This document shows positions 629 through 59,500 of a stretch of DNA of 64,000 nucleotides, piece after piece. The stretch lies in NCBI RefSeq assembly GCF_025244665.1, contig NZ_CP104205.1, forward strand, positions 434,001 to 498,000. The letters are read 5' to 3'. The translations under genes were made by a program, and so were the position numbers. The notes under the pieces were generated by a model that saw only the letters and a list, made by a program, of their open reading frames with translations, was not told where the DNA came from and ran no database searches. Every line of letters begins with the position of its first letter. The stretch's first letter is position 1. This stretch comes from Maribacter litopenaei (GTDB lineage: Bacteria; Bacteroidota; Bacteroidia; Flavobacteriales; Flavobacteriaceae).

Positions 629-1884
629 TTTTATCTGTAAGATAATGGTTAAGGGTTGCAGAATGCGTTAAAGGATTTCTAAAAAATGAGTTACTAATTG
701 TGGACCAAAATCTATCGGTTTCCGGAATCGTGTTTTTAAAATCTATTTCCAAAGGATTTTGGTTTGTCTTTGCAAAGTAATACCAAAGTGTTGCCGATAG
801 GGCCGGAGTAATATCCGAGTGGTCCCATAAATTGTTTTCGCCATAGGTAGTACCGAAATTTGCCGTATAGGGTATGCCTTTGGCATTTTCTGAAATGGAA
901 CTTTGAATAGATGTCTTTTCAATATTTTCCGGAATCCCTTCCGAAAGATCGAATCGCTGAATGCTATTAAATGCCACAGCCATTTGGGCGGTGCCTTCCA
1001 ACCAAATCACATCCTTATCTTCGTCAAAGCAATATCCGTAAATCAGTTCTCCACTTAAGGTGGCGGTTTGTTCATTAATGAACTTGTTGGCTTGAAACAG
1101 CACATCGTCAGATAGCTCATTGAATATCATTTTACTTAAGGAAAATACATCTAGCGCATAGGCATAATCCGGGTTTTACGGCCAGGCCATTAAAACGCCC
1201 AATTCTTGGTCCCATCGATTATTTTGTAGAAAGCTTAAGAGGTTCTTATGGAATTCGTCATACCCTTGTACAGCATGAAAAGCCGTAATCATACCTTCCG
1301 TAACATTTGGGATTTCTGTTCCGTCAGGATTATATCCACCTTTTAAAGCTCCGTTCTCCATTTGAAGGGAACGCAACCAGGTTTCCAATTTGAGGGAAAG
1401 TGAGTTGTATTTTCCAGATTGATATGTGTTCTCATATTGATTTAAGGCAATCAATAACCAGGCATTATCCCCCATCCATATTCTTTCAGGTTCGGAACCA
1501 TCAGAATTTCTAAATTGGTAAAAGCCACCAGTTTGTGATAATTCTGTGTCTGAAATGGATTCATAATAATCTAAAATCATTTCGGCATTACCTTTCATGC
1601 CCTCTTGCATAAAGAAAATAGCGGCAAGGGCATTATCATACAAGGAAGTAAAGCCGAGATATCTCGGTACTTTCCAATAGGCCGGAAGGCTGTTGCCTGT
1701 TCAAAATCCAATTGGTGAACGCTACATCAAAAACTTGGGATTTTTGGATTGTTTTTTCAGATTCCGTTGCTATTTCCTGATCTAAGGAAACCTTTAAGTC
1801 TTCATGCAGGGTAGTAACGTCCTCTTTGCTACAAGAGGATAAAATAATAATGAAGAATGAGAACGCGATTAATCGTAGGTTCAT
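540..1884 (-). CDS. Exported lipoprotein resembling six-hairpin glycosidases (interrupted)
   Basis: The N-terminus is a lipoprotein signal (MNLRLIAFSFFIIILSSCSK). It is followed by a helical-repeat protein rich in the motifs of (alpha/alpha)6-barrel glycosidase-like proteins: LYDNALAAIFFMQEG, GGFYQFRNSDG, WMGDNAWLLIALNQY, TEGMITAFHAV, GYCFDEDKDVIWLEGTAQMAVAF. It probably acts on a polysaccharide at the cell surface; the substrate is unknown. The frame is broken twice. Near 1653-1663 a one-base insertion separates the signal-peptide part from LYDNALAA. At 1176-1178 an in-frame TAA replaces the expected Glu in MAWP-E-NPDYAYALD. Both sites fit the CCAGA error pattern. The 3' end overlaps the small membrane gene by ~89 bases, so the true stop is uncertain. 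Confidence 0.65.
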
Positions 1885-2120
1885 GTAGTAGGTCTAAATA
1901 GATTTGGACTTACAAATTACGATGCTGAATGGTACAAGCGGAAAACTATCGACCAAGTCAGCCAATTATCGATATTACTCTATTTGGATTTATACTGAAC
2001 TGATTATCCAGTATTTAATCGATATTTCAGGAATGAATAGCATTTCATTTCAAGGAGAAAAATGGACTTTTTGACCCTTCATAATTTATAAAAGATCCCT
2101 TAATATTAATTTTCCTTTAT
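1885..2120. other. Intergenic region upstream of the glycosidase-like gene
   Basis: No gene is supported here. The DNA is AT-rich and should hold the promoter of the minus-strand lipoprotein gene, but no convincing TAnnTTTG box was found for that strand. The candidate small RNA begins just after this stretch. Confidence 0.4.
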
Positions 2121-2128
2121 TATCTTTG
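2121..2128 (+). promoter_or_regulatory. -7 box (TATCTTTG) of a candidate small RNA
   Basis: TATCTTTG matches the Bacteroidota -7 consensus TAnnTTTG. No clear TTG -33 element is seen. The box lies ~14 bases before a hairpin-rich stretch that ends in a terminator and holds no convincing gene on this strand. Confidence 0.45.
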
Positions 2129-3269: not shown

Positions 3270-5304
3270 CTAGTGCTTAATTTTTTGAGTTTTGGTCTTG
3301 AATAAGGGTTCAACAATATGGTCTTCTACTAAGTTAGGTAAATTAATATGTAACGAGGGTGTCCGCTCCATTTCCCTTTTTATGGCAAACATAGCTTCTT
3401 TGTTCCGAGCCCAGCTTCTACGGGCTATTCCATTGTTAACGTCAAAGAACAACATGCTTTTTAAACGGTTCGATGCTTCCGCTGTCCCATCCAGGACCAT
3501 TCCAAAGCCTCCATTGATGACTTCGCCCCAACCTACACCGCCACCGTTGTGAATAGATACCCAAGTGGCACCCCTAAAACTGTCACCAATAACATTATGA
3601 ATGGCCATGTCCGCAGTAAATTTACTTCCATCGTAAATGTTACTGGTTTCCCTATAGGGACTGTCAGTGCCACTCACGTCGTGGTGATCTCTTCCTAGGA
3701 CAACCGGAGCAGAAATTTCACCGGATTTTATAGCTTGGTTGAATGCCTCGGCAATCGTGGCTCTTCCTTCTGCATCGGCATATAAAATACGGGCCTGTGA
3801 TCCTACAACCGAGACTATTTTCTTCAGCCTCCTGTATCCATTTGATGTTGTCCTCCATTTGTTGCTGAACTTCTATGGGTGCGGTTGATTTTATCCGTTG
3901 CATTACCGCAAGCGCAATTTGATCTGTTTTTCTCAAATCCTCCGGATTTCCTGAAGTACAAACCCATCGAAACGGACCAAAACCATAGTCAAAACACATG
4001 GGTCCCAATATATCTTGAACATAAGACGGATATTTAAAATCAATCTGGTTTTCTGCCATTACCTCTGCACCGGCCCTGGAAGCTTCCAACAAAAAGGCGT
4101 TTCCATAATCAAAGAAATAGCAACCTCTATCGGTGTGCTTGTTGATGGCATTGGCATGTCTTCTTAGCGACTCCTGGACCTTGTCTTTGAATTGTTGAGG
4201 ATTGGAACTCATAAGGTCATTGGATTCCTCATAACTAAGTCCTACGGGGTAGTACCCACCTGCCCATGGGTTATGTAAGGATGTTTGATCCGATCCCAAA
4301 TGCACAAAAATGTTTTCGCTATAAAAGCGCTCCCAAACATCCACTACATTTCCTATATAGGCCAAGGAAACAATTTCTCTTTGCTCGATGGCGGTTTTGG
4401 TTCGCTCAACAAGGCTGTCTACATTTTCCAAAAGTTCATCGACCCATCCCTGCTCATATCGTTTTTTGGCCGCTAAAGGGTTAACTTCGGCGCATACGGT
4501 TATACATCCTGCAATATTTCCTGCTTTCGGTTGTGCCCCGCTCATACCTCCAAGTCCGGCCGTAAGAAATATTTTTCCTTCGGGTGTTTCTCCGGATTTT
4601 AATACTTTCCTAAAGGCGTTCATGACCGTAATCGTGGTACCATGAACAATTCCTTGCGGACCAATATACATATAGGAGCCAGCCGTCATCTGACCGTATT
4701 GCGTAACTCCAAGGGCATTAAAACGTTCCCAGTCGTCCGGTTTGGAATAATTTGGAATCATCATACCGTTGGTCACCACCACTCTTGGAGCTTCCTTGGA
4801 GGAAGGAAACAAGCCCATGGGATGCCCGAATAGATATTAAGCGTTTGTTCTTCGGTCATGATGGACAGATATTGCATCGTAATGAGATACTGGGCCCAAT
4901 TCTGAAAAACAGCACCATTCCCTCCGTAAGTGATTAATTCTTCCGGATGTTGTGCCACAGCTGGATCCAAGTTGTTCTGGATCATTAACATAATTGCGGC
5001 CGCTGGAGATGTCTTTGCGGGATACTCCGAAATGGGTCGGGCATATATAGCGTAGTCTCGGTTTGAATCGGTACATATAGATACGGCCAAATTCCAAAAG
5101 CTCCTGTGCAAATTCTTCAGCAAGTTCTTTATGCCATTCCTGGGGAAAATAACGGAGTGCATTCTTAATGGACAATTTTTTTTCCTCGTTGGATAAAATG
5201 TCCTTTCTTCTTGGGGCGTGAGATACATCTAAAGAGCGTCCTTTTTTCTTTGGTAATTCATACGGGATACCCGCCAAAATCTGTGCTTTAAAATCCTTGC
5301 TCAT
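3270..5304 (-). CDS. hutU: Urocanate hydratase (interrupted by three shifts)
   Basis: This enzyme converts urocanate to 4-imidazolone-5-propanoate using NAD+. The product of ~678 residues has the long flavobacterial form. Recognisable urocanase segments are YGGNGAVFQNWAQYL (5' third), GGMSGAQPKAGNIAG, FDYGNAFLLEASRAGAEV, CFDYGFGPFRWVCTSGN, and GGGVGWGEVINGGFGMVLDG near the C-terminus. Frame breaks lie near 5056-5061 (before DYAIYARP), 4825-4829 (YSG-HP) and 3809-3814 (before VVGSQARILYAD). All three occur where CCAGA or TCTGG is expected. Conserved residues are present on both sides, so the enzyme is probably functional in the organism. hutI ends 4 bases upstream. Confidence 0.9.
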
Positions 5305-5308
5305 TCTT

Positions 5309-6559
5309 TTAGGCTTTATGCTTGTTGTAAACCAATTCTCCGTTTTTCCATACCATGCAGGGCTTTAAATTCCCTTGGTTGTATAGAATTTCCTGGTAAT
5401 TATCGGTATGGAAAAGGCTAAAATCCGCCGAAATCCCTTTGCCAGTTTTCCTCAGTCCTCAAGGCCCAAAGCGGCGGCTGCCCTTACGGTAATTCCAGCC
5501 AAAACTTCGGCATTGGATAATTTTTCAAAAGCGCCCAATATGGCAGCTTGGGTCAATAAATCTCCCATAGGGGCAGAACCCGGATTGTGGTCGCTTGCAA
5601 TGGCCAATGTTGCACCTGCGTCCAACAGTTTTCCGGCAGGCGTAAAATTACAACCAAGTCCCAAAGAGGCTCCGGGTAGGGCCGTGGCAATTGTGTTACT
5701 ATTGGCTAATAGTTGAATTTCGGCATCCGTACTCGCCTCTAAATGATCGGCACTTATGGCCCCGAAATCAACGGCCACTTTGCTGCCTCCAGTGGAAAAT
5801 TGATCCGCATGTACCGTGATGTCAAAACCCATCTGTTTGGCCGCTTTAAAATAAGGGGCAATTTCCTCCGGCGAAAAGGCACTTTCCTCTATAAAGGCAT
5901 CGATTCTGTTGGTAAGTCCTTTTTCTTTTAATAATGGAAGAATGATTTCGGATAATTCTTTTAAATAGTCCGCTTTGGAACCCTTGTAGTCCTTGGGATA
6001 CATATGGGCGGCCGAGACACGTAGAAATAAGGTCCGAGGGTGTTTCTTTGTTCGCTTCCCTTATGGCCTCCAACATTTTAACCTCCTCTTGAATGGACAG
6101 GCCATAACCACTTTTTACCTCTAAGGTGGTGATACCGGTCTTAAGATGCCGATTGGCCAATTTTGCCGTCTTTTTTATCAAGGTTTCCTTGTCCGCCTTT
6201 CTCGTTTGTGTAACCGTGTCCCAAATACCCCCTCCCGCTTTGGCAATTTCCAAATAGGTTTTTCCGGAATTTCTAAGGGCGTAATCGTTCGCCCTGCTTC
6301 CTCCAAAACAAATATGGGTATGCGCATCGATAAATCCAGGGAGACAAACATGGGCCCCGGTCAGTTCATGACACTCGGCGGAAGCATGTTCTTTTTTAAG
6401 GGAATCAAAATTTCCCGTGGCTATCACTTTTCCTTCGGAAACTAAGATTCCCGCTTCTTCAATAATCCATAATTGACTATCAGATAAAGGTCCTTTTAGG
6501 GGCAACGCCTCCATGGTCAGTAATTGTTTAAAAGGTCCGATTAATTGCAATGCTTCCAT
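5309..6559 (-). CDS. hutI: Imidazolonepropionase (interrupted)
   Basis: This amidohydrolase opens imidazolone-5-propionate to N-formimino-glutamate, the third step of histidine breakdown. Metal and substrate motifs are visible: DAHTHICFGG with RANDY, the helix ending KSGYGL, VHADQFSTGG and ASDHNPGSAP. Breaks: a one-base insertion at 6012-6017 (expected DLISTCLAAHMYPKDY), an in-frame TGA at 5452-5454 where Arg is expected in LED-R-GKLAKGF, and a one-base loss near 5430. Beyond these the frame continues through DFSLFHTDNYQEIL to a natural TAA at 5309-5311. The gene lies 3 bases after hutH and 4 bases before hutU, so it is in the same operon. Confidence 0.88.
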
Positions 6560-6562: not shown

Positions 6563-8139
6563 CTAATAGCTTTCAAATTCAGTTGAATATTTCGTTTTGA
6601 GCGAAATGTTTCTATTTTTTTCAACTTTTTCAATGACCGATATGATTGTTTTGTTTTGTATCATTTCAATGCCCTTTTCGATATCATCCGAAAAAACACG
6701 ATCCTTCTCGGCAAAAGATACTTGTTTTCGCACGGTTTTGTGTATTTCATCCGAGAAAGATTCCTGATTTCAAAGGCTTTCTATATTCAAAGGCCTGAGC
6801 GGCCGTCAATAATTCTATAGCCAATATTTTCTCTACATTTTCTATGACCCTAAGCGCTTTTCTCCCGCCGATGGATCCCATACTCACATGATCCTCTTGA
6901 CCTAAAGAAGTGGGAATACTATCGGCACTGGATGGAAAACACATGCCCTTGTTTTCGCTGGCCAGGGCGGCACTCGTATACTGTAATATCATATAACCGG
7001 AGTTGATGCCGGTGTCCTTCATCAATAATTTAGGAATTCCGGGGCTATTCCCCTCCAAGGCCAAATAAATACGTCAGTCCGAGATGTTACCTACCTCTGA
7101 GGCGGCCAAGCAGGCATAATCCAAGGCTAAGGCCAAGGGCTGTCCGTGAAAGTTACCACCACTTATTGTGAGTTCCTCATCGATTATTACGGGGTTGTCC
7201 GTAACAGAATTCAATTCGGTTTCCAGTAATTCCTTCAAGTGTAACCAAGCATTACGTGATGCCCCATGCACTTGGGGAATACACCTCAGGGAGTAGGGAT
7301 CCTGTACACGATCACAGTCTATATGATCTTCCATAATTTCCGACCCTTTTAGCAATCGCTTCACCCTTCGGGCAACGTGTATATTCCCTTTAAAGGGTCG
7401 TAATTCATGTAATTCTTTATAAAAAGGTTTCACGGAACCTTGTAGGCCTTCAATCATCATGGCACCAATGATATCGGCTTGTGATAAAAGAGAATGGAGT
7501 TTTTCCACGACCTTAACGGCATGGGCCGCAATGAATTGGGTGCCGTTAATAAGTGCAAGCCCCTCCTTTGGTCTCTAAGTCTATGGGGTCAAGCCCCGTT
7601 TTATCAAACATGTTTTGGGTCTCCATAACCACGCCATCATAAACAACCTTGCCTAAGCCTATGAGTGGTAGGAACAAATGTGACAAGGGAGCCAAATCAC
7701 CCGACGCCCCTACGGAACCCTGTGAGGGTACCACTGGAATGACATCATTTTCAATATGCCGAGATAATGCGTTTAAGTGTACTAAGGGAAATTCCGAATA
7801 TCCCTTGGCCAAGGAATGGGCCTTTAAAATCAGCATGATTTTAGCAAGTTCTTTGGAAATGGGTTCGCCCACACCCACGCTATGGCTTTTAAGGATGTTG
7901 CTCTGTAAAATTAGAGTCTCCTCTTTGGAAATTTTAGTGGTGCAAAGAGGCCCAAATCCAGTATTGATTCCATAGACTGGCTGTCCTTTTTCCACAATTG
8001 CTGAAACAACCTTGGCACTGTTTTCAATTCGCTGTTGGATAGCTTCGGAAAGTACTGTTGTAGTAGCTCCTTTTTCTATATCTAAGACCTTTCCTACAGT
8101 AAGCCAGTCTTCTCCAATTTTAAATGATTTTGAGGCCAC
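6563..8139 (-). CDS. hutH: Histidine ammonia-lyase (interrupted)
   Basis: It deaminates L-histidine to urocanate, the first step of the pathway, and belongs to the aromatic amino acid lyase family. The MIO-forming Ala-Ser-Gly is present in GSVGASGDLAPLSH, and YGINTGFGPL and the SGGNFHGQPLAL segment are clear. Breaks: a one-base insertion near 7564 (after DLETK), an in-frame TGA at 7074-7076 where Arg is expected in NISD-R-RIYLALEG, and an insertion at 6751-6756 (FL-DEIHKTVRKQ). After the last shift the frame runs to TAG at 6563-6565. The gene is first in the hut operon and divergent from the LysR gene 85 bases away. Confidence 0.9.
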
Positions 8140-13260: not shown

Positions 13261-13633
13261 ATGAAGCAGTTAACAAAGGCCGAAGAGGAGGTAATGCAAG
13301 TATTATGGCAATTAGAGAAGTCAAATGTAGCCGGTGTCATAGCCGAGTTGCCGTGAACCCAAGCCGGCCTACAATACCATCTCCACCATCATACGGATTT
13401 TGGAAAGCAAGGGCTTCGTGGATCATGAGAAGGAAGGAAAGGGTTACCTGTACTTTCCAATCGTAAAAAGGTCAGATTACAGCAATCAAAGTATCAACAA
13501 ATTAGTAGACGGGTATTTTCAGGGTTCCTTTAAAAGTATGGTCTCTTTCTTTGTAAAGAAGAATGATATGAATCTTAAGGAACTGGAAGCCATCCTTAAG
13601 GAGATGAAGAAGGAAGAGGGTTCCACCAAATAA
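13261..13633 (+). CDS. BlaI/MecI-family repressor (interrupted)
   Basis: The ~123-residue winged-helix repressor starts MKQLTKAEEEVMQVLWQLEKS and continues, after one break, with PKPAYNTISTIIRILESKGFVDHEKEGKGYLYFP and a C-terminal dimerisation helix region. At 13351-13356 the window reads CCGTGAA where LPEPKPAYNT needs CCAGAA, which produces a TGA; this fits the window-wide CCAGA pattern. The partner BlaR1-type protease gene follows 25 bases later. The three palindromes upstream indicate autoregulation. Confidence 0.85.
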
Positions 13634-13658: not shown

Positions 13659-15561
13659 ATGATTCAATATATCTTAGAAATTATCGCCTTTCAATTGACC
13701 TTTTTGGTTATCTATGACTTCTTCCTAAAGAAGGAGACGTTCTTTCAATGGAACCGAGTTTATTTATTGACCACCTTCATTGGCTCCATGGCTTTGCCTT
13801 GGGTAAAAATCGAGGCCCTAAGAAGCGAGTCCCCTATCTTTAAAGGCTATTCTGAATATTTATGGAGCGTTCAGGAATCGCCCGTTACTATAGTAGAAGC
13901 TTCACAAGATTGGTTTTCAATTTCATAGTCCGAAGCAATTTTTGCACTTGGGTGTATGCTTGCCACCATCGTTTTTGCAATAAAATTATGGCGATTATAT
14001 CGATTAAGGACTATTGGCAGCATGCGCTATTTTCCGGACCATACCCGGATTCTTATTCCAAAAAGTCATATAGCCTTTTCATTCTTTACATCCATTTTCT
14101 TAGGCGAGAGTATCAATTCAAAGGAAATAGAATCCATTGTAAAACATGAGTTGGTTCATATTAGGCAGCGCCACACCTTAGACCTCTTGTTTTTTGAGGG
14201 TATGCGCATTCTGAGTTGGTTTAACCCCTTGGTTTATATGTATCAAAACCGGTTGACGGAACTGCACGAATACATTGCCGACGCCCAAGTTCCAAAACAA
14301 GACCGACAGTCGCATTGTGAGATGCTATTATCTCAATCATTCGAAGTTCAAAATATTTCTTTTATCAATCCATTTTATAAATCATCATTAATCAAAAAAC
14401 GAATAGTCATGTTACAAAAATCAAAATCTAAAAAAATCTGGCAGTTAAAATATTTGCTACTTGTTCCAATAGTCTTAGGCATGCTGGTTTATTCCTCTTG
14501 TGAAAGCGAATCTAATTCCAAGGAAGATACAAATAGCACTTCCTTAAAATCCATGAAGGTTCCCTTCAATGAAATTGATGTGGTGCCTATCTTTCCAGGG
14601 TGCGAGAACGTAGATGACCAACGTGCTTGTTTTAACGAAAAAATACAGATGCACATTGGCAAAAACTTTAGCTATCCGAGAGGAAGCTATAAAACAGGGT
14701 CTTGAAGGTAGGGTCAATGTTATGTTTACTATCAATGCCGAAGGAAATATTGTAGACATAAAAAAGCGAGGCCCACATCCTCTTTTGGAAGATGAAGTGG
14801 AGCGTATCATTTCCCGACTCCCGCAAATGAAACCAGGTTTAAAGGATAGTATCGCAGTGAACATACCTTACTCCATTCCCATAGTCTTTAAGTTAGATGG
14901 TACATCGGCTAAATCAATGTCGCAAAAAGGGCTTGATTCGGATTATGTTCCCTTTGGTCAGGTAGATGAGGTGCCCATTTTCCCGGGCTGTGAAGATGTA
15001 TCTGACACACGAGCCTGTTTCAATGAAAAAATAATGGAACACATCAGCAAGAATTTTAGATATCCTGAAGAGGCTCAAAAAAATGGTATTCAGGGTAGGG
15101 TTAGTGCCATGTTCACCATTTCGGATAAGGGTATGGTCCAAAACCTAAAATTAAGGGGGCCTGATAAATTATTAGAGGATGAGGTACAACGCATCTTGGA
15201 ACGTTTGCCCAAAATGGAGCCAGGTAAAAATGATGGAGAGCAAGTAGCAGTAGCTTATTCAATACCTGTAAATTTTAAGTTACAGGTTGAGGATGGTCAG
15301 ACATCCAATGAGAAAAAGGTAAAAGACTATTTACAGGTAGCGGGGGCTTTGGCAGTTGAAAGAGGAGCAAGTGTTTTTAAGGGCCAAGTAATGGATCGTG
15401 AATCTATGGGAATCCCTGGTGTGGATATTTTGGTCGTTGGAAGTAATGAAGCGGCTATTTCAGATTTTGAAGGTCAGTTTAGTATTCCCGTATTGGAAGG
15501 GCAAATTTTAGAATTTCAGTATGAAGGACTACCGCCAAAAAGGGTACTGGTTTTCGGATAA
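13659..15561 (+). CDS. BlaR1-type M56 metallopeptidase with two TonB-C domains (interrupted)
   Basis: Order of parts: N-terminal membrane helices (ILEIIAFQLTFLVIYDFFL), an M56 zinc protease site IVKHELVHIRQRH with downstream Glu, a further membrane helix (YLLLVPIVLGMLVYSSC), two tandem TonB-C-like domains (each containing FPGCE...ACFNEKI...YPEEA...GRV...LLEDEV), and a short carboxypeptidase-like sandwich (FKGQVMDRESMGIPGVDILVVG). It probably senses a periplasmic or envelope signal and triggers cleavage of the BlaI partner. Breaks: TAG at 13926-13928 in FSIS-x-SEAIFALG, and a one-base insertion at 14676-14681 (YP-EEAIKQG). The second site is of the CCAGA type. Confidence 0.8.
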
Positions 15562-45535: not shown

Positions 45536-48500
45536 ATGCTGAACAAAGGCATCAAGTATCTTATAGAAAACAAACTTATTGCAGTGCTCCTTCCGGTTCT
45601 TTTTGTAGGATGGGGTTTGGTGAATGCACCTTTTAATAGAGGAAATTCCGGTTGGTTGTCCGGTTTGCCGGCTTCCCCGGTTGCGGTGGATGCCATCCCG
45701 GATATAGGGGAGAACCAACAGATTGTTTTTACCAAATGGGAGGGACGATCCCCACAGGATATCGAGGACCAAATTACCTATCCACTTACGAGCTCTTTGT
45801 TGGGAATTCCTGGAGTGAGGACTATCCGTAGTTCTTCTATGTTCGGATTTTCCAGCATCTATATCATTTTTGAGGAAGATGTAGAATTCTACTGGTCTCG
45901 CAGTCGCATCTTGGAAAAACTTAACTCGTTGCCCATAGGTCTACTACCGGATGGGGTAAGCCCCACTTTGGGGCCCGATGCCACGGGCTTGGGACAAATA
46001 TTCCGGTATACCTTGGAAGGAAGGACCAGGAAGGAAACGTCACCGGAGGATGGGATTTACAGGAATTACGTAGCATACAGGATTACTATGTAAAATATGG
46101 GTTGGCAGCTGCCGGTGGAGTTTCCGAAGTGGCTTCTATAGGTGGTTTTGTGCAGGAATATCAGGTAGATGTGGATCCTGAGCTTATGCGGCAGTACAAC
46201 ATAGGATTGGCCGAGGTGGTAAAGGCCGTAAAGCAAAGCAATCAAGACCTAGGAGCGCAAACCCTGGAAATGAATCAGGCCGAATATTTAATTCGTGGTT
46301 TGGGCTATGTAAAATCCATTGAAGACATTGAAAATGCGGTAGTGACCTCGGAAGATTTTACATCCATAAGGATCAAGGATATTGCGAGGGTAAATTTAGG
46401 TCCTGCCAGTCGGCGAGGTATTCTTGATAAGGAGGGCGCCGAAGTCGTTGGAGGTGTTGTTGTGGCCAGGTACGGTGCAAATCCTTTGGAAGTCATTAAT
46501 CAGGTAAAGGATAAAATTAAAGAAATAAGTGGAGGTTTGCCATCCAAGGTATTGGCCGATGGCCGTACTTCACAATTGACCATCGTACCCTTCTATGATC
46601 GAACGGAATTGATTCAGGAAACCTTGGGTACCCTCAACGAGGCGTTAACACTAGAAGTCTTGATCACCATTTTGGTCATCATCGTTATGGTATTCAACCT
46701 TCGTGCCTCTATACTTATTTCCGGGCTCTTGCCCGTTGCTATCCTTATGGTGTTCATCACCATGAAACTATTTGATGTGGACGCGAATATTGTGGCACTT
46801 TCCGGTATTGCCATTGCTATAGGTACTATGGTGGATGTAGGGGTAATCCTGGCGGAAAATATGATACGACATCTAGAGGATAAGACATTGTGTCTTGACA
46901 GAGAAGGCAACCCGTTAACGACCAATGAAATTGTCTACAATGCGACCTCCGAGGTATCCGGGGCTATTCTAACAGCCGTATTGACCACGATTATAAGTTT
47001 TATTCCTGTTTTTACCATGATTGGAGCGGAAGGAAAACTGTTTCGCCCTTTGGCCTTTACCAAGACGATGGCCCTGGCCGCATCCTTGGTCATTGCCCTA
47101 TTCTTGATTCCTCCTTTTGCAGCGCTATTTTTTAGAAAAGGAAAACAGCCTATTGCTCTGAGGAATCTTTGGGATTATGCACTGATTGTGATAGGGGTAC
47201 TGGCACTCATTTTCGGATTTTGGACAGGTCTCGGCATTGATCGCTTTTGGAGGAGTGGGGCTTTGGTTTCGATTAAACAAAAAGGAAAGTATAGAGATTT
47301 CCAGTGGTAATTTCAATGTTTCATTTTCAAAAAAACTGGCCAATATTGGGATATCCGTGTTACTTATCGTAATACTATTGGCCGAATACTGGAGACCTTT
47401 AGGCTTTGATAGAAGCATCCTCATAAATTTTGTTTTTGTGGCCCTTATTTGTTTCGGTCTTTTGGGTACTTTCTCGGTATTTAAAAGGTATTACTCCCGT
47501 ATTCTAAGGTGGGCCTTGGACCATAAGGGGCTTTTTATTGTAATACCTTCCACGATCCTCTTTCTTGGTATTATGATCATGAAAAATACGGGTGAGGAGT
47601 TCATGCCTTCCTTAAATGAAGGTACTTTTCTGTTGATGCCAACCTCCCTGCCCCATGCCGGGGTCGCGGAAAATAAGCGTGTGCTACAGCAATTGGATAT
47701 GGCGGTGGCTGGCATTTCTGAGATTGAAACCGTGGTTGGAAAATCAGGACGAACGGAATCGGCTTTGGACCCAGCTCCTTTGTCCATGTATGAGAATGTG
47801 ATTCAGTACAAGTCCGAATTCATGAGGAATACGGAGGGTAAAAGACAACGTTACAAAGTGAACAAGGACGGATTGTTTGTACTTAATGATGGAAAATTTC
47901 ATGTAAATCCCAACAATCCTATAGAAGGTCATGAGCAATATGATACTTCCCAATTGGTCCAATTTGTAGAAAGGGGAGATTTAATTCCTGACGAGAACGG
48001 AGCGTACTTTAGGAATTGGCGCCCGAAATAGAGAGTCCGGATGATATTTGGAACGAAATCGTATCCGCCACTCGTTTGCCGGGAGTTACATCGGCACCTA
48101 AACTGCAACCTATAGAAACCCGTTTGGTAATGTTGCAGACAGGAATGCGGGCACCAATGGGTATCAAGGTAAAAGGTCAGGATTTACGGGAGATTGAAAA
48201 ATTTGGACTTCAGCTGGAGGAGCTTCTGAAGGAGGCCGAGGGCGTTAAGGCGCAGTCCGTTTTTGCGACCGTATCATTGGAAAACCCTATTTGCTCATTG
48301 ACATTAAAAGAGAACAATTGGTACGTTACGGAGTATCGATCGCCGATGTACAAAACATCCTAGAGGTGGCCGTTGGAGGCATGCCCCTTACACAAACAGT
48401 GGAAGGCAGGGAACGGTATTCGGTAAGGGTTCGCTATCCAAGGGAATTAAGGGATAATCCGAGAGGATTTGAAGAATATCTATGTGCCCGTTGAAAAGGG

Positions 48501-49333
48501 AAGTCCCGTACCTCTAGGGGAGCTGGTGGAAATCAAATATGAAAAGGGACCACAGGTAATTAAAAGTGAGGATACCTTTTTAGTGGGGTATGTACTGTTC
48601 GACAAGTTGGACGGCTTTGCCGAAGTGGATGTGGTTGAAAATGCCCAGGCTTTGATAGGTAAGAAAATCAAAACCGGGGAATTGACAGTTCCCAAAGGGA
48701 TTAGCTATCAATTTACGGGGACCTATGAGAACCAGCTAAGGGCAGAAAAAACCTTGTCTATAGTAGTGCCCCTGGCCCTACTCATTATTTTTGTGATCTT
48801 GTACTTCCAGTTTAAATCGGTTACCACTTCTTTAATGGTATATACCGGTATCGCCGTAGCCTTTGCCGGAGGGTTTATCATGATATGGCTCTATGGCCAA
48901 GAATGGTTCCTCAATTTTAGCCTATTTGGTGAAAACCTTAGGGATTTATTTCATATGAAAACCATCAACTTAAGTGTGGCGGTATGGGTAGGGTTCATCG
49001 CCTTGTTTGGAATAGCCACGGATGACGGTGTGGTCATGGCCACCTACTTGACCCAAACGTTTGAAAGGGAAAAAACGGACAGTGTAAAGGGTATCCGTTT
49101 GGCAGCATTGCAAGCCGCGAATAAGCGAATTCGGCCCTGTTTGATGACCACGGTCACCACCATTTTGGCCTTATTACCGGTTATGACTTCCTCTCGGAAA
49201 GGGAAGCGATATCATGATTCCTATGGCCATACCTATTTTTGGTGGAATGGTGATTGACATAACCTCCTATTTTTTAGTGCCAGTATTGTATAGTTGGCAT
49301 AAAGAATATCGATTAAAAAAGACAAACAAATGA
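45536..49333 (+). CDS. cusA: CusA-type heavy-metal RND transporter (at least six shifts)
   Basis: This ~1265-residue inner-membrane pump of a tripartite copper/silver export system is longer than E. coli CusA because of an extra hydrophobic region around 47150-47520. Motifs: FVGWGLVNAPF, DAIPDIGENQQIV, GAQTLEMNQAEYLIRG, IAIGTMVDVGVILAENMIRHLE, GEEFMPSLNEGTFLLMP, GIKVKGQDLREIE, FGIATDDGVVMATYLTQTFE. Breaks near 46019, 47229, 48023, 48250, 48459 and 49192; four of these are CCAGA-type. After the last the frame ends IPIFGGMVIDITSYFLVPVLYSW with TGA 49331-49333, overlapping the ATG of the next gene. Confidence 0.9.
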
Positions 49334-50545
49334 GAAACCTGAGCCTACTATTATTCTTTTTGTTAGTTGTAGATGGTTCTGCCCAAAGTCTAAGAGATTA
49401 TTTGGTGGAGGCTATGTCTAACAACCCGTAAATACAAGCATTTGAAATGCGATATAATATATCAAAAGAGAAAATTTCGGCAGCTTATAGTTTGCCAAAT
49501 ACCTCTTTAAGTGCCGGATATTTTTTAAGTGAACCTGAAACACGAACGGGTCCACAGCGGATCCGACTTTCCGTATCCCAAATGTTGCCCTGGTTCGGTA
49601 CCATAACTGCACGCGAAAATTACGCAAGTTCACTAGCAGATGCGGATTATTTGGATTTGGTTATCGCCAAAAGAAAATTGGCCTTGTCCGTAACACAATC
49701 CTACTATACCCTATATCTTTTGGAAGCAAAACAAAAGGTCTTAGAGGAAAATATCCAATTGTTGGATACCTATGAGCAATTGGCCTTGACGTCCGTTGAG
49801 GTGGGCAAGGCCTCGGCAGTGGATGTGTTGAGATTGCAAATTCGAAAAAATGAATTACAGCAACAGGTAGAGGTTTTGAAACAAATGTTTTTTGCTGAAA
49901 GGGCGAACTTCAATGCATTGAGAAACCAAAAACAAAGCCTTGCCGTGCCAATTGTTTCGCAATTGGATTTACCCGTTGAAGATTCATTATTGAATAATTC
50001 ACAGATAGATTTGAATCCTGAGCTTTTAAAATATGATAGACTTTATGAATCAGTAATTAAGTCCGAAATGTTGAATCAAAAGCAAAGTGCCCCAAACTTT
50101 GGAATAGGATTGGACTATGTAACGGTTTCGGAGCGGCCAGATATGGATTTTGTAGATAATGGAAAGGACATATTGATGCCTATGGTGTCTTTGTCCATAC
50201 CGCTGTTCAACAATTCTTATAAATCCGTGACAAAACAGAATGAATTTCGTCAATTGGAGTTGGAATCGCAAAAGCAACAACGGCTGAAGGTACTCGAAAC
50301 GGCTTTGGCAAAAGCGGTTTCACAAAGAAACCAAGCCCGTATCTCCTATAATACTATTAATAGGAATTTGAAACAGGCAAAGGATGCTGAGGACATCCTA
50401 ATAAAAAACTACGAGACGGGTACTATAGATTTCAATGATGTTTTGGACATTCAGGAATTACAATTAAGGTTCCGAGATACATCGATTGGAAACCATAAAA
50501 TCATATTATGAACAGAGTGCAATTATTAACTATTTAATACAATAA
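49330..50545 (+). CDS. CusC/TolC-type outer-membrane factor (two breaks)
   Basis: The ~404-residue protein has a signal peptide (MRNLSLLLFFLLVVDGSAQ) and the helical repeats of outer-membrane efflux proteins: VTQSYYTLYLLEAKQKVLEENI, VGKASAVDVLRLQIRKNELQQQ, LKQAKDAEDILIKNYETGTIDFNDVLDIQELQL. Breaks: TAA at 49429-49431 (NNP-E-IQAFEMRY, CCAGAA read as CCGTAA) and an insertion at 50472-50477, after which HRLETIKSYYEQSAIINYLIQ ends at TAA 50543-50545. It forms the outer-membrane channel for the CusA/CusB pump. ATGA overlap with cusA. Confidence 0.85.
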
Positions 50546-51082: not shown

Positions 51083-53580
51083 ATGAAGCACACCTATAGC
51101 ATAACTGGGATGAGCTGTAACGGTTGTAAAAACCATGTTGAAAAGGCTTTGTCCAATGTAGAAGGTGTTTCCAAGGTATCTGTGAATCCGGAAGGTGCGG
51201 AAGCTACCATTGAAATGAAGGAACATATTCCGTTGGAACGCTTTAAGAAAGCTCTTAAAGAAGATGGTGGCGGGTATGCCATCCATCCTCAAGGTTATGT
51301 TGCAAATAAAACGGAAGAAAAGAAAGCTACAGGTAGCGGAACAGGTACTTTTTATTGCCCTATGCGTTGCGAAGGGGATAAAACCTACGATACCCCTGGA
51401 GACTGTCCTGTGTGTGGAATGGATCTGGTAGAGGAACAAAGGGTTCAATCTTCGTCCGAAACGGAGTGGACCTGTCCTATGCACCCTGAAGTGGTGAAAG
51501 ACGAGCCTGGGTCTTGTCCTATTTGCGGTATGGACCTTATACCCAAAGAGCCCGATATCTCTGCCGAGGAAAAAAACTATCAAAAACTACTGAAAAAGTT
51601 TTGGATTGCCCTTGGTTTTACCTTGCCTATATTTTTGATTGCCATGAGCGATATGCTGCCAAGTCAACCCTTGTTCCGTATTATGAATCAAAAATGGTGG
51701 AATTGGGATTCAACTGGTGCTATCTGTCCCAGTGGTATTCTATGCTACCTGGATGTTCTTTGAACGCGCCTATAGAAGTATTAAGACTTGGAACCTAAAC
51801 ATGTTCACGCTCATTGGTATTGGCGCTGGAATTGCATGGGTTTTCAGTGTTTTTGGATTGCTGTTCCCCGACTTTTTTCCCGCCCAGTTTAAAACGGAAT
51901 CAGGAGCCGTTCATGTGTATTTTGAATCCGCTACTGTTATACTGACTCTAGTGCTTATGGGACAAGTATTGGAGGCCCGGGCCCATAGTAAAACAAATTC
52001 CGCCGTAAAGGAACTATTAAAGTTGGCCCCAAACAAAGCCGTGCAAATTGTGGAAGGCCAAGAGAAAATGGTGGCCATTGATAGTATTGAAATCGATGAT
52101 ATCTTAAAAGTAAAACCAGGTGAAAAAATTCCTGTGGACGGTATCATTACGGAGGGTGGGACTTCCGTGGATGAATCTATGATAACAGGGGAACCCATAC
52201 CAGTGGACAAGACCGTAAATGATACCGTAAGCAGTGGAACCATTAATGGCAACCGGACCTTTTTAATGAAGGCCCAAAAAGTTGGATCCGATACCTTGCT
52301 ATCCCAAATAATTAGCATGGTCAATGATGCTAGTAGAAGCCGTGCCCCCATCCAAAATCTAGCGGATAAAATTTCAAGCTATTTTGTACCTATCGTAGTC
52401 CTTGTTTCCGTACTGACGTTTATCGTATGGGCAGTTTGGGATCCCAATCCGGTCTATGTATATGCATTGGTCAATGCCATAGCTGTGCTCATTATCGCAT
52501 GTCCCTGTGCCCTGGGGCTGGCGACCCCCATGTCCGTTATGGTTGGAGTTGGGAAAGGGGCCCAAAACGGAATACTTATTAAAAATGCAGAGGCCTTGGA
52601 AAAAATGGATAAGGTGAACGTTCTTGTCGTTGATAAAACAGGTACGATTACGGAAGGTAAACCGACGGTAGAAAAAGTAGCTTCCTTTGATAAAACTATT
52701 TCGGACGGTGAGGTATTGGAATCAATTGCATCACTGAATAGCTCCAGTGAGCATCCTTTGGGGGCAGCAACGGTAAAGTATGCCAAGGAAAAGAATATAG
52801 GGTTGAAAAAAGTCGAAAGTTTTAATTCCGTTACCGGAAAAGGAGTAGAAGGATTCGTAGACGGCAGAAAATTAAGTTTGGGCAATGCAAAAATGATGGA
52901 GTACGCAGGTCTTGGACTTGAAAGGGAAGCCGCGTTGGAGGCGGAGAAATATCAGGATCAAGGTAAGACAGTTTCATTTTTGGCTATTGAGAATACGTTG
53001 GTCGGTTACGTAGTAATCGGTGATAAAATAAAGAGTACTAGTAAAGAGGCAGTTAAAAAGCTTCAGGAAAAGGGTATTGATGTCATCATGATGACAGGCG
53101 ATAACGAAAATACGGCAAAAGCAGTAGCAAGCGAATTGAATTTGACCGATTTTAAGGCGGGTATGCTTCCGAGAGAACAAATTGGAGGAAGTGAAAGCGC
53201 TACAGGCAAAGGGCAAAATTGTTGCGATGGCCGGTGATGGTATAAACGATGCTCCGGCACTCGCTAAGAGTGATGTGGGTATCGCCATGGGAACGGGTAC
53301 TGACGTGGCTATTGAAAGTGCCATGATGACTTTAGTGAAAGGTGACTTGCATGGAATAGTAAAGGCCTATACTTTAAGTGATGAGGTCATGAGGAACATA
53401 AAACAAAATCTTTTCTTTGCGCTAGTTTACAATACTCTAGGAATACCGATAGCGGCGGGTGTACTGTACCCGTTTTTTGGAATTCTTTTGTCTCCAATGA
53501 TTGCGGCATTGGCAATGAGTTTTAGTTCCGTTTCCGTTATAGCAAATGCACTTAGATTAAGAAGTAAAAAATCGGATTGA
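51083..53580 (+). CDS. copA: Cu(I)-exporting P1B ATPase (two shifts)
   Basis: The ~832-residue ATPase has an N-terminal HMA domain ([15 protein letters not shown]), two heavy-metal-binding modules (CPMRCEG...CPVCGMDL and CPMHPEVV...[10 protein letters not shown]), then eight membrane helices with the transport motif [10 protein letters not shown], the actuator TGEP, the phosphorylation site [28 protein letters not shown] and [14 protein letters not shown]. It pumps Cu(I) from the cytoplasm into the periplasm, where the CusCBA pump can take it. Breaks: a one-base gain near 51704-51711 ([12 protein letters not shown]) and a CCAGA-type insertion at 53169-53174 ([13 protein letters not shown]). 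Confidence 0.92.
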
Positions 53581-53584: not shown

Positions 53585-54284
53585 ATGGTTAAAAGAAAAA
53601 CTGCCATCAAGATTAGGAAAGCCCATCGGTATTTGGGAATTTTTCTTGGGATACAATTCTTGTTCTCGGATCGTTAGTGGTCTCTATTTCAGTTGGACTG
53701 ATATAGATGAGATACACGGAGATCATTTTAGAAGGACCCCTTCTGAAATTGTAGCCTTTGAGAACCTCTTTGGCTTGGATGAAATTACCAAGGATATTTC
53801 CGTTTCATCCATAGCGCTAAGAAATATTGCAGGCGAACCTTATTACTGGATCAACCATGAATTTTTGTACAATGCCAAAACGGGTGCTTTAAAAAAGGAA
53901 ATCGACGAAAAGGAGGCTTTGGGAATTGCCGCTGCCAATATGATGCCGGAATTAAAGGTTTCCCATGTAGAGCGATTGAACGAGGTGGGCACGCATAGCG
54001 AGTATAGAGGAAGACCCTTACCTGCTTTCGCCATACATTATGATCATGACGAAAATGTGATAGCGTATGTATCCATAAAAGATGGGGCCTTCCAAACACT
54101 TCGGCATAGGGATTGGCGTTGGTTCGATTTTCTTTGGATGACACATACCATGGATTATGAGGGAAGGGATGATTTTAATACCCTAGTGCTAAGAGCCTTC
54201 TCCCTATTGGGGTTGATAACAGTCCTTAGTGGTTTTTTACTTTGGTTTACAAGTTCTCCAACCGTAAGAAAAATTAGAAAATAG
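53585..54284 (+). CDS. PepSY-domain membrane protein (one shift)
   Basis: The ~233-residue protein starts MVKRKTAIKIRKAHRYLGIFLGIQ, which is typical of PepSY-associated membrane proteins. It has an N-terminal helix, a PepSY-like extracytoplasmic domain (EALGIAAANMMPELKVSHVERL) and a C-terminal helix (AFSLLGLITVLSGFLLWF). The motif FLWMTHTMDYEGRDDFN precedes the last helix. A CCAGA-type insertion at 53664-53669 changes FLFW to a stop. It lies 4 bases after copA, inside the copper cluster; it might move electrons or assist metal reduction, but this is not established. Confidence 0.8.
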
Positions 54285-54315: not shown

Positions 54316-56033
54316 ATGAATAAAAATGTGATTTATATTGTAATCGCTCTCATTATAGGAGTTGTAGTGGGAGGGTTCATATTTGGAAGTTTCATGGTGG
54401 AAACTGATAGTGGTGATTTAGTACATGAACATTCAGAAGAATCTGGGCAAATGTGGACCTGCTCCATGCACCCTCAGATAATGCAACCGGAACCGGGTGA
54501 TTGTCCTATATGTGGTATGGATTTGATTCCTGCGAAATCTGATGGAGAGGGTTTTGCCCTAAATGAAATCAAGATGACCGAAAATGCCATGGCCTTGGCC
54601 AACATAGGTACCACTGTCATTGGAGAAGGGAATTCCGGCGAAGGACAAAAAATCACATTATCAGGTCAGATTAAGGTCAATGAGGAAGCAGAGGCGGTTC
54701 AATCCAGTTATTTTGATGGCCGTTTGGAACAATTGAACATTTCTTATGAAGGGCAAGAAGTAAACAAGGGGGCTCTTTTGGCAACCATTTATGCGCCTAA
54801 CCTGGTGGCGGCACAACAGGAATTGATAAGCTCCTTATCCTTAAAGGAATCGCAACCGGCGCTTTATGAAGCGGTAAGAAAGAAATTGAAATTATGGAAA
54901 CTAACCGATAATCAAATAATTGCCATTGAAAAGAGTCAAAAGGTTCAGGAATATTTTCCAATATATGCTACGGTTTCGGAACCGTTGCCGAAAAAATGGT
55001 TTCAGAGGGGGACTATGTAAAACAAGGGCAACCCCTTTTGAAATTGGCGAATTTGAATTCGGTTTGGGCAGAATTTGATGTTTATGAAAATCAGATAGCC
55101 TCCTTAAAGAAAGGCCAAAAAATTACCATGTTCAGCAATGCATATCCAAATAAGGAATTTGAGGCTGCCATTAGTTTTATTGACCCTATCCTTAACGAGC
55201 AATCTCGAACAGTGGCCATGAGGGCCACTATTAAAAATAGCGATGGAATATTAAAACCCGGGATGTTTATGAGGGGTGAGATTCAAAACAATTCCGAGAG
55301 TTCATCCATTTTAAACGTTCCATCCGCTGCAGTACTATGGACGGGTGAACGCTCCATAGTATACATAAAAGTGAATCCCAATGCCCCCGTTTTTGAAATG
55401 AGGGAGGTTGTGCTTGGTAATAGGATTGGTGATTATTATGAAGTGCTTTCAGGTCTTCAAATTGGCGACGAAGTGGTTACAAATGGTACTTTCACTATCG
55501 ATGCGGCCGCTCAGTTACAGGGTAAAAGATTCATGATGAATGAAGATACGAAACTTGAAGCCAGCTCAGAAAATATGGTGGATATGAAACTCAAATTCCC
55601 AACCTCTTTTCAAAAGGATTTTAAGGATATATTGCCGCTATATTTAGATATTAAGAACGCTTTAGTGGAAAGTAATAAGGATGAAGTCAGCCTAGAGTCG
55701 CGGAAATTATTAGTACAATTAAACGCAATTGATATCGATGGTTTGGGCAACATGGAAAAGGAGCATATTAGTAATATAGTTGAAAGGGTCAAAAATATCG
55801 CCAGTGCCAAGGACATTGAAAACCAACGTGATAATTTTGTAATCCTTAACGAGAATATTGTTCCTGTGGCCATGAACATGAATGACCTGAGTACCCCTGT
55901 TTTTGTTCAAAAATGCCCTATGGCCAATGATAATAAAGGAGCTTTTTGGTTGAGTATGGAAAAGGAAATCCGCAATCCGTATTATGGTGCTGAAATGCTT
56001 ACCTGCGGAAGCATCGTTGATTCGATTCGATAA
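54316..56033 (+). CDS. cusB: CusB-type periplasmic adaptor fused to a DUF3347 domain (one shift)
   Basis: This ~572-residue membrane-fusion protein links CusA with the outer-membrane channel. Parts: an N-terminal anchor (VIYIVIALIIGVVVGGFIFG), a heavy-metal-binding module ([24 protein letters not shown]), barrel-sandwich and helical regions (QLNISYEGQEVNKGALLATIYAPNLVAAQQEL; VSEGDYVKQGQPLLKLANLNSVWAEFDVYE), a beta domain (VPSAAVLWTGERSIVYIK), and a C-terminal DUF3347 domain with CPMANDNKGAFWLSM...MLTCG. A one-base loss at 54975-54978 (TCTGGAA read as TCGGAA) separates ATVSG from TVAEKMVSEG. It is the last gene of the copper cluster. Confidence 0.9.
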
Positions 56034-56599
56034 ATATTTCCAAATTATATCATTTCAATATTAAGAGCAAGTGCCTCCTAAAGGGGTAAAACTCTTCAAT
56101 TTCATCTATTTTATATTTACTTAGGATGCTCTAGTCCTATCAAATTTTGTAAGGAATAATTAATAATTAATTGAAACTACTACATAATCCTAATGTTTGC
56201 TCTTTTGATTTTGAGATATAAAATTGTCTTGATTCCTTGAATGTTTTCTTGTGGTATCAATCAGTTAATTTTTTAGAAATCTGCGGATAATAGTTAAATA
56301 TTTATTAAATTTTGCGAAATATTTAATAAATAACAGTGTGAATTACACACTTGTCAATAGTTGATTCGATAGGTAATGAATTGCCGGATTCAGTTAAAAA
56401 AACTTAAAATTCATGAATTTGATAGTTCTTAAGGGTGTTAATTTGCAAGAGTTTAATTCTGTTAAGGTAGTTTTAAGAAATGAAAAAAAATTAACATAAA
56501 ATTTGGTTGCCCGGTATATCGGAAATATGCTTGGTTACACTTTGAAAATAATTCATTTTAACTAACAACAATCAATATTAACTTAAACCTAATTTTTTT
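56034..56599 (+). promoter_or_regulatory. Long AT-rich leader upstream of susC
   Basis: The 566 bases contain no supported gene. Structures seen: an inverted repeat with arms TATTTATTAAAT and ATTTAATAAATA (56299-56310 and 56321-56332), a short palindrome AAATTCATGAATTT (56407-56420), and TTAGGATGCTCT (56118-56129), which recurs upstream of the TPR-AraC gene. No clean TAnnTTTG box was found. A long leader suggests regulated expression of susC. Confidence 0.5.
56299..56332. repeat. AT-rich inverted repeat upstream of susC
   Basis: Twelve-base arms TATTTATTAAAT and ATTTAATAAATA flank TTTGCGAAAT, where TTT/AAA can extend the stem. It lies ~270 bases before the susC ATG; it could be an operator or a transcript hairpin. 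Confidence 0.55.
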
Positions 56600-59500
56600 A
56601 TGAAGAGTACATTCTTAAAGGGTCTTTTGCTTTTTGGAGCGTTTTTATGCTTTGGACTGGTAAAAGCTCAAACCGTAACGGGTACAGTTTCAGACCGAGA
56701 CCGATCCATTGCCCGGTGCCAGTGTTTTAATTAAGGGTACTACTACAGGTACCCAAACGGATTTTGACGGTAATTATACATTGGACAACGTAGATGACAA
56801 CGCTACCTTGGTATTTAGTTACATCGGTTTTAAGACACTTGAAGTTGCCGTGAATGGCCAATCAACTATTGATGTAACCATGGAAGAGGATGCCAGTAAA
56901 TTGGATGAAGTAGTTGTCACTGGGTATGGATCACAGGCCAAAAAGGATTTGACCGGTTCAGTATCCGTAGTGGATACGGAAGAACTTTTGGCTGTTCCTG
57001 CAACTACATTTGCCCAACAACTTCAAGGTAGGGCCGCTGGTGTTAGTATTATCAACGATGCCAGGCCTGGAGGTGAAGCAACGGTGAGAATTCGTGGTTT
57101 CGGTACAGTTGGTAACAATGCACCATTATACATCATTGATGGTGTTCCTACACAGGCGCAGGCGAACTTAAACCCAAATGACATAGAATCCCTTCAAATT
57201 CTAAAGGATGCCTCTGCTGCATCCATTTATGGTTCAAGGGCGGCAAACGGGGTTATCATTATTACGACCAAAAAAGGGAAAATGGGAAAACCAACAATCT
57301 CCTATAACTCATTTTATGGGATAGGTTCTCCTGAAAAGGATCCGAGAGGCTTTAAACGCTCGGGAACTAGGTGAGTATCTTTATTTAGCAGACCTTTACG
57401 CCGGAAAAACACCAAGCCATGGACAGTATACATTTGGGCCCAATGGCGAAGTTACCATTCCAGATTATGTGTTTCCTAGTGGTGCCAACGAAGGTGATGC
57501 AGGTACCGATCCAAGTTTGTACGCCTTAGAAGAAGGCAATATATATGCCATTACACGTTCCGCTGATACGGATTGGTGGGACGCGGTTACACGTTCTGCA
57601 CCTGTACAACAACATAATATATCAGCCTCCGGTGCTACGGAAAATGCAAGATATGCATTTACCTTAGGATATTTTGAGCAGGACTATTTGGTGAAATTTG
57701 CGAGTTATAATAGGGTTTCTTTGAGGGCAAATACGGAATTCAAGGCTATAGATGGAAAGTTGACGATTGGTGAGAATTTCACTGCCTCATTTGATAATCA
57801 GAAGGGTAACTTCCAAAATGACCAAGAACAAAATGCAGTTTCCGCAGCTTACAAGCACCATCCACTGCTTCCAATTTACGATATTGCTGGAAATTTTGCA
57901 GGTAGTAGGGGAGCCAATTTAGGAAACAATTTTAACCCTTATGCCGTTTTGGCAAGAGATCAGGATGATAGAACATACAGGTTGCGTCTTTTGGGGAATG
58001 TATTTGCCAATTACGCCATTACTCCAAATCTAAGTATTCGTTCCAGTTTTGGTGCAGACGTAAGAGCACAAAGAAATAGGGATTTGGGCAGGCCCCAACC
58101 TGAATATGTAGAAGGAAACTTTATCAATAGTTCAACCGCAAGGGAGGAATATGAGTATCAATGGACATGGACCAATAGTTTGGAATACACAAAAACCTTC
58201 AATGAGGTTCATAATTTCAAAGCCTTTGTGGGTGTTGAGAGTATACAGCAATTTGAGGAAAGATTTGGTGCTTCAAGGCAGCGTTTTGCTTTTGAAACGA
58301 CAAATATCCTGAGTTATTTGGACTTAGGAAACGCCACTACATCCACTAATTATGGGTTTGTTGAACAAGATTATTCCTTATGATCCCAATTTGGAAGATT
58401 GGATTACGATTATGATGGTAAATATCTAGCGCAGGTAACTTTGAGAAATGACTCATCTTCTAGATTTCAATCGGCTTCTCGAAGTGCTGTATTCCCGGCA
58501 TTTAGTTTAGGATGGAGGGTTTCTGATGAAAAGTTTATGGACAATGTGGGATGGATTGATGACTTTAAGATTAGGTATGGCTGGGGTCAAACAGGTAATC
58601 AACAGATCGGTGATTACAATGCCTTTACTACTTATCAATCCAATATAGGAACTGGCGGTTATCCAATAGACGGTAACCCCTCTTCGCCGGCTATTGGTTT
58701 TCAAACACAAGCATTTGGTAACCCAAACGCAAAATGGGAAACAACTACAACTAACAACATTGGTTTTGACCTTAATATGTTGCAAAACAGGTTGACTTTC
58801 TCTTTAGATGCATACAGTAGGGTTACAACCGATATGTTGTTCCAAATTCCTCCAACATATACTGCAGGACAGGCGGAAGCCCCAAGATTCAATGTAGGTG
58901 GTATTACCAATAAGGGGGTGGAATTTAATTTAGGGTTTAGTGATCGAAAAGGCGATTTCGGATATAGTGTGAATACAAACTTCACACATTACACAAACAA
59001 TGTGGACAAACTTGATGATAACCCATCCACTCGTTTCCTAGGCGGATCCGGAAGGGTTCCGTCATTGACAGTTACCCAAGCAGGTTCACCCCTTTCCTCT
59101 TTCTTCGGTTTTAAGACCGTTGGAATTTTTCAATCCCAAGCGGAAGCAGATGCTTGGCCGGAGTATGGGTCTTATAATGCTCCTGGTAAGTTAAAGGTGG
59201 CTGATATAAATGGTGATGGTGTAATCAATGATGATGACAGGACGGTCATTGGTAACCCTCATCCAGATTTTGTATATGGTATAAACATAGACCTTACCTA
59301 TAAAAATTTGGCTTTGAACATTTTTGGTAATGGCTCCCAAGGAAATGACATTTACAACTATGTAAGGTATTTTGCAGATTTTAACACTTTTCAGGGTAAT
59401 CGCTCAAGAAGAGCCTTGTACGGTGCTTGGCAACCTACAAACCCTCAAGCAGACCCAAGTACATGGGTAGCTGCAAATCCAGGTGCTACCGTGCCTATTA

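Follow-up and report, generated by a model that had tools for sequence, protein, structure and literature searches.

Frame breaks at CCAGA words in a Maribacter litopenaei genome assembly: probable consensus errors at a putatively modified motif

A 64,000-nucleotide stretch of the Maribacter litopenaei genome (the window; positions 434001-498000 of contig NZ_CP104205.1) raises the question of whether its more than 30 broken reading frames belong to the organism or to the assembly. The genome was assembled into one contig (3,864,532 bases; completeness, 81.68%; contamination, 4.01%) and has 39.9% G+C in a spaced 400-kb sample; its closest named relative is Maribacter flavus KCTC 42508, with which it shares 91% identity in protein and, over 9 kb, 84.5% in DNA. 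A preliminary description of the window had put the breaks down to a systematic consensus error at one word, CCAGA (TCTGG on the other strand), with DNA modification as the likely cause. This explanation was supported by a segment nearly identical to M. flavus, by diverged alignments, by a comparison across the family, and by the 16S ribosomal RNA (rRNA) genes. We consider it likely that the frame breaks are consensus errors at CCAGA/TCTGG and, more weakly, at GGACC/GGTCC, in an assembly that we infer was made from nanopore reads, and that the native DNA is modified, most likely by 5-methylcytosine (5mC) from one of three cytosine-5 methyltransferase loci.

CCAGA sites compared with M. flavus

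Over one segment of 22.6 kb (contig positions ~366,225-388,860), the genome hardly differs from M. flavus (elsewhere, identity is ~80 to 87%); the segment appears from its sequence to be a recently shared block. By our own reading, it carries heavy-metal efflux genes, and one of its ends lies near a relaxase gene. Within this segment, 33 of 42 M. flavus CCAGA sites are altered, and other differing columns number only 19. The 42 sites read CCGGA (n = 20), CCAGA (n = 9), CCGA (n = 7), CCGAGA (n = 3), and CAGA, CTGA, and CCGTA (one each); the CAGA case is equally explicable as the loss of a base from a G run. The commonest outcome, CCGGA, keeps the reading frame, and CCGA and CCGAGA give the frame breaks. 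The reading of A as G had been noticed before; that its frame-neutral product is the most frequent outcome had been missed. Length changed at 12 of the 42 sites, or 0.53 per kb, so that ~34 frame changes would be expected in 64 kb, near the number first counted in the window. Sites in both orientations are affected, unequally (20 of 22 versus 13 of 20 altered; p 0.06).

Diverged alignments with M. flavus (31 pieces, 189,595 columns, mean identity 83.1%, near-identical segment included) gave the same picture. Of the CCAGA words of M. flavus, 314 have sound flanks in these alignments; only 9 are kept, with 61 reading CCGGA, 13 CCGAGA, and 12 CCGA. Five similar pentamers are kept far more often (CCAGC, 47 of 194; CCAGT, 88 of 265; GCAGA, 57 of 197; ACAGA, 64 of 216; TCAGA, 53 of 184; together 309 of 1,056; Fisher p about 1e-28 against CCAGA) and change length far less often (17 of 1,056 versus 34 of 314; Fisher p about 1e-11). 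Two controls outside this sum, CCAAA and CCTGA, are kept at 550 of 1,085 and 70 of 271 sites, with 15 and 9 length changes, respectively. The change from CCAGA to CCGGA (64 cases, versus 7 in reverse) is the most asymmetric among 2,389 pentamer pairs. The errors concentrate on one short word, which is a mark of modification-mediated nanopore consensus error.

Not every indel lies at CCAGA. The preliminary description held that the expected word is nearly always CCAGA, which is too strong for indels as a whole: among 159 clean frame-changing indels, CCAGA stands in M. flavus at 42, and at 73 there is either CCAGA in M. flavus or CCGAGA in the present genome. The other 86, sorted by eye, include GGACC/GGTCC words, homopolymers, natural or intergenic indels, and CCGA/TCGG words where M. 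flavus has diverged.

Some of these indels may mark a second misread word, GGACC/GGTCC, which was overlooked earlier and appears to be more weakly affected than CCAGA. In the diverged alignments, GGTCC became GATCC 39 times, versus 6 in reverse, an asymmetry backed by the depletion of GGACC (629 in 864 kb versus 501 in 400 kb of M. flavus), by changes at 3 of 10 GGACC sites in the near-identical segment, and by two GGACC/GGTCC words that differ between the two 16S copies. Its misreads are mostly GGATC/GATCC.

Extent of the errors across the genome

We counted words in 864 kb of the genome and 400 kb of M. flavus. CCAGA is not at normal frequency: it occurs 304 times, versus 715 times in the smaller M. 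flavus sample, and is the most depleted pentamer relative to that species; CCGAGA is enriched (413 versus 70). Both outcomes had been proposed as checks in the preliminary description. The depletion extends over all 40 sampled stretches of 20 kb, which hold 2 to 17 CCAGA words each (27 to 52 in 20 M. flavus stretches). In the window itself CCAGA is the most depleted pentamer (23 versus 60.3 expected). No like depletion was found among 298 other genomes of the family, whose sequencing platforms are unknown: CCAGAC and its reversed word occur 66 and 818 times in M. litopenaei, and the lowest ratio elsewhere, read by eye, is 114 to 332.

The errors strike noncoding as well as coding DNA. Neither rRNA copy has the conserved 16S site GGACCAGACTCC intact, and their errors are not the same: for the stretch ACACGGACCAGACTCC, one copy has ACACGGATCGAGACTCC and the other ACACGGACTGAGACTCC. 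The two copies differ at four places in all, namely, the ACACGGACCAGACTCC site, the two GGACC/GGTCC words mentioned above, and one other. The exact 26-mer around the site is present in 22 of 36 genomes of the genus (the present one included), among them all 5 other single-contig genomes; the 14 that lack it are the present genome, M. flavus, and 12 other multicontig drafts. Such damage in rRNA is not explained by gene decay or programmed frameshifting. Essential genes are also affected: dnaA and ligA are each split into three open reading frames (ORFs), every piece of which is confirmed by Pfam, with TCTCGG at one break of each gene and CCGA/TCGG words near the other breaks, which were placed only approximately. 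CCGAGA is also found where a methyltransferase gene at 3.18 Mb is split. The differently wrong 16S copies and the split dnaA and ligA together argue for consensus error rather than gene decay.

In the window, all 22 positions listed in the preliminary description as CCGAGA/TCTCGG hold that word, and the six listed as having lost a base hold CCGA/TCGG, three of them beginning one base after the listed start; the remaining three read TACGG, CCGTGA, and CCGTA. Among sites with aligned relatives, the length truly differs at 18 of 19 insertions and at all 4 deletions. Against the commonest aligned relative, 18 of the 22 insertion sites are one base longer, 1 is not, and 3 lack an aligned relative; 10 of the 18 are covered by a single aligned sequence. 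Four of the six deletion sites are one base shorter and two are uncovered; of the three other sites, one is one base longer, one equal, and one uncovered. M. flavus is present more than once in these alignments, so that counts refer to aligned sequences and not to independent genomes. The window contains 35 CCGAGA/TCTCGG words in total; of the 13 unlisted ones, 4 are one base longer than relatives, 5 are not, and 4 are uncovered.

The best-supported insertion sites all lie on the minus strand, at 25444..25449 (32 of 32 aligned sequences), 28041..28046 (24 of 24), 28335..28340 (34 of 34), 29766..29771 (18 of 18), and 29828..29833 (17 of 23; the site is two bases longer than 4 of the remaining sequences and equal in length to 2). 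Length also differs from four relatives at 14676..14681 (plus) and from both aligned sequences at 31252..31257 and 31904..31909 (both plus), the latter with CCAGA in both. A single relative supports 6012..6017, 6751..6756, 43705..43710, 48459..48464, 50472..50477, 53169..53174, 56695..56700, and 57342..57347 on the plus strand, with CCAGA at 43705 and 57342, as well as 5056..5061 and 49192..49197 on the minus strand. The word is present, with no relative aligned, at the listed breaks 15902..15907 (plus), 16589..16594 (minus), and 47229..47234 (minus). At 53664..53669 (minus), the sequence is equal in length to its sole aligned relative, and the listing is unsupported.

For CCGA, length differs from one relative at 4826..4829 (plus), 43965..43968 (minus), and 48023..48026 (plus), the last two opposite CCAGA, and from three of three sequences at 41373..41376 (minus); the word stands at the listed breaks 41046..41049 and 54976..54979 (both minus), where no relative aligns. 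CCGTGA at 13351..13356 (plus) differs in length from two of two sequences, one with CCAGA; CCGTA at 1177..1181 (minus) has the same length as its relative, which has CCAGA; and CCGTA at 49426..49430 (plus), at a listed break, is without an aligned relative. The M. flavus alignment adds two length differences: one at a CCAGA-like word, absent from the earlier list (30345..30357, minus), and one with GATCC for the GGACC of M. flavus, a candidate site of the second motif (33836..33848, no strand assigned).

Two other features of the window were observed. Around 34441-34500 it has ~37 bases more than M. flavus, resembling a short interspersed repeat; a pattern search for this repeat gave 0 matches in 142 loci, the window not being among them. 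From our reading of the ORF list, positions 45500-56000 hold a further cluster of genes for CusA-like efflux proteins, metal ATPases, and adaptors, diverged from those of the near-identical block.

Nature of the mark and alternative explanations

Native DNA probably bears a modification outside the training of the basecaller at CCAGA/TCTGG and at the more weakly affected GGACC/GGTCC. The base after the inner C of CCAGA would then become G (CCGGA), be dropped (CCGA), or turn into two bases (CCGAGA), and the length-changing outcomes would break reading frames about once per 2 kb. The mark would most likely be 5mC; its source would be one of three loci outside the window that encode a cytosine-5 methyltransferase alongside a restriction partner. 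Retention of CCAGA varies with the flanks, of which up to two bases per side were tested: it is 0.04 of expectation for CCAGAC, 0.75 for ACCAGAT, and 1.07 for CCAGATC, and 0 of 39 for GCCAGAG. The earlier remark that CCAGAT is often intact holds for CCAGATC, which is fully kept (58 versus 54 expected), and by half for CCAGATT (81 versus 166), but not for CCAGATA and CCAGATG, which are mostly lost (20 versus 121 and 17 versus 97). Such flank dependence fits better with a pore that senses several bases together than with an enzyme's choice of site.

A search of the whole genome with PF00145 identified the three cytosine-5 methyltransferase loci, whose neighbors encode an HNH_2 protein, a 202-amino-acid ORF product without a family match, and an EcoO109I-family nuclease; the first and third of these neighbors are putative restriction partners, and the second is unclassified. 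EcoO109I recognizes RGGNCCY. An EcoO109I-family partner suits GGNCC-like words and, with them, the second motif, whose misreading extends beyond RGGNCCY contexts. As a candidate for the CCAGA enzyme, we lean slightly toward a helix-turn-helix methyltransferase at 1,952,124-1,953,629, which had no match at E 1e-60 in the other genomes of the 36-genome genus set, and whose nearest plasmid relatives (55 to 56% identical) adjoin LlaJI-family nucleases; the 3.68-Mb enzyme follows closely as a second candidate.

Several attempts to name the enzymes were set aside. In plasmids with relatives of the 1.95-Mb enzyme, GGACC occurs at 0.15, 0.25, and 0.57 of expectation, but three related plasmid stretches with no annotated gene of this kind show 0.31, 0.25, and 0.40, which makes the depletion uninformative; CCAGA is slightly lower in the carriers (178 versus 166 expected) than in these controls (305 versus 228), a difference too small to be of use. 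Relatives of the 3.68-Mb enzyme (44 to 49% identical) adjoin MutH/Sau3AI- or BglII/BstYI-family nucleases, which would suggest a GATC-type enzyme, yet the region between the catalytic motifs is just 25 to 45% identical, and this reading was not used. Its 202-amino-acid neighbor had no match in the plasmids searched, and searches of the PDB returned nothing beyond cytosine methyltransferases of a generic kind, an HNH nuclease, and one weak match.

The three PF00145 loci, together with the outcome of the adenine searches and the publication of CCAGA as a 5mC target, make 5mC a better guess for the mark than N6-methyladenine. The preliminary description had favored the latter, set by an orphan, type IIG, or type III enzyme, and A read as G is indeed the main substitution (20 of 42 sites); adenine methylation probably exists in the genome as well, given its two type I restriction-modification systems at about 2.87 and 3.61 Mb, one of them with a split hsdM. 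PF01555, PF02086, and PF20473, however, had no match in the whole genome, and PF02384 and PF07669 matched only the two HsdM loci, a PrmC-like protein, and one sequence below the cutoff, these five being a part of the adenine-methyltransferase families. Type I recognition words are split rather than five adjacent bases, and TCTGG contains no A; we therefore regard N6-methyladenine as unlikely. We think it less likely still that the fault lies in a basecalling or polishing model that fails at CCAGA in unmodified DNA. Flank dependence would look identical in that case, and we see only the consensus, but such a fault should recur in genomes made with the same model, and none of the 298 family genomes shows it (how many of these are nanopore-only was not established); moreover, this genome has cytosine methyltransferases and CCAGA is a known methylation target. 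Slightly lower again we place a mark other than 5mC or N6-methyladenine, such as N4-methylcytosine or a larger adduct. Most N4-cytosine methyltransferases belong to PF01555, the family without a match here (genes for larger adducts were not searched for); on the other side, the errors of Listeria at GCAGC and GCTGG have been ascribed to untrained modification types (PMC10687267).

That the changes are real, through gene decay, tolerance by programmed frameshifting or recoding at CCGAGA, or a mutator process acting on CCAGA, seems extremely improbable. In its favor, the deposited sequence does contain the length differences. Against it, one conserved 16S site is altered differently in the two copies, and dnaA and ligA are split. 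The commonest change is a substitution, which frameshifting leaves unaddressed; both orientations are affected; and the 22.6-kb segment is otherwise only 19 columns away from M. flavus.

A modified CCAGA as the source of consensus errors nevertheless has observations to answer. Platform and modification were judged from the assembly consensus and relatives, and not from reads or a platform record. A mark on one strand of a nonpalindromic word should leave half of the reads right, yet errors occur at ~80% of sites, with some inequality between the orientations in the near-identical segment. A footprint of 5mC deamination was considered and rejected, since the change from CCAGA to CCAAA (47 of 314) lies inside the control range, and its absence also speaks against 5mC. 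In Listeria, the errors are reported to be mostly mismatches (PMC10687267), whereas a third or more of those at CCAGA change length. The GGTCC asymmetry comes only seventh in the ranking and points the same way as the general loss of G+C relative to M. flavus, which makes it weak alone. Finally, a misread CCAGA does not account for the full retention of CCAGATC. One speculative idea, to which we give little credence, is that a single enzyme sets 5mC on both strands of the asymmetric CCAGA/TCTGG, and that a second methylation at an overlapping GATC blocks it, sparing CCAGATC; if true, cross talk between two restriction-modification systems would show as an error pattern in an assembly.

Consequences and comparison with known systems

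This species-representative genome appears to hold ~2,300 to 5,500 wrong CCAGA sites, as extrapolated from the counts in the 864-kb sample. False frame changes, extrapolated from the one 22.6-kb segment, would number roughly 1,700 to 2,000, and there are errors in the 16S genes. Gene content, pseudogene counts, and 16S placement derived from it would mislead, and many genes that look broken are probably intact in the organism. More generally, no reads are needed to propose a modified word: a finished assembly and one relative can suffice. The same motif check could be applied to the nanopore-only genome of M. halichondriae, for which 173 mostly frameshifted pseudogenes were reported and taken as host adaptation (PMC10942906).

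Modification-mediated nanopore errors are known from other bacteria, and CCAGA in Maribacter would be a further case; a whole-word literature search found no paper in which CCAGA, methyltransferase, motif, and nanopore all occur. In many species, A/G and T/C calls are described as ambiguous close to methylation sites (PMC11610573), and occasional errors near methylated motifs are reported elsewhere, with most methylated sites error-free (PMC12392509). In Listeria monocytogenes, nanopore-only genomes are reported to contain thousands of errors on GCAGC (four strains) or GCTGG (one), which were removed by amplification and ascribed to modification types absent from training (Chiou et al. 2023, PMC10687267). 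As in Maribacter, the errors center on one five-base word, tied there to a strain-specific modification; unlike in Maribacter, where CCAGA is inferred from a relative and many changes affect length, proof in Listeria came from short reads and amplified DNA. In Klebsiella sequences called with untrained basecallers, 5mC in the Dcm words CCAGG/CCTGG is reported to lie behind about 70% of the errors in the consensus (Wick et al. 2019, PMC6591954). CCAGA has CCAG in common with this word, but the Dcm word is palindromic with a known enzyme, and CCAGG itself is not depleted in the Maribacter genome.

Among known enzymes, M.BatI is reported to mark one or both strands according to the word (PMC8936443), and LlaJI to have two 5mC methyltransferases for an asymmetric five-base word (PMC1459862). 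In contrast to LlaJI, the 1.95-Mb locus has one methyltransferase and an HNH_2 nuclease, and a LlaJI-family gene was not seen adjoining it. The identical five-base word is known from Neisseria meningitidis, in which CCAGA is given as a type IIS 5mC target that is evident from MspJI cleavage and not from single-molecule real-time kinetics (PMC7973814); CCAGR seen there with MspJI and FspEI was ascribed to a CCWGG enzyme together with a CCAGA enzyme (PMC7046676). The Neisseria genomes, unlike the presumed nanopore assembly of Maribacter, are described as PacBio assemblies polished with Illumina reads (PMC7973814). The 5mC enzyme listed for this word in REBASE, M.Nme15193ORF2725P (NEIS0771), lies in a restriction-modification locus (PMC7973814, PMC7046676), and the word that it recognizes is the same as that misread in M. 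litopenaei.

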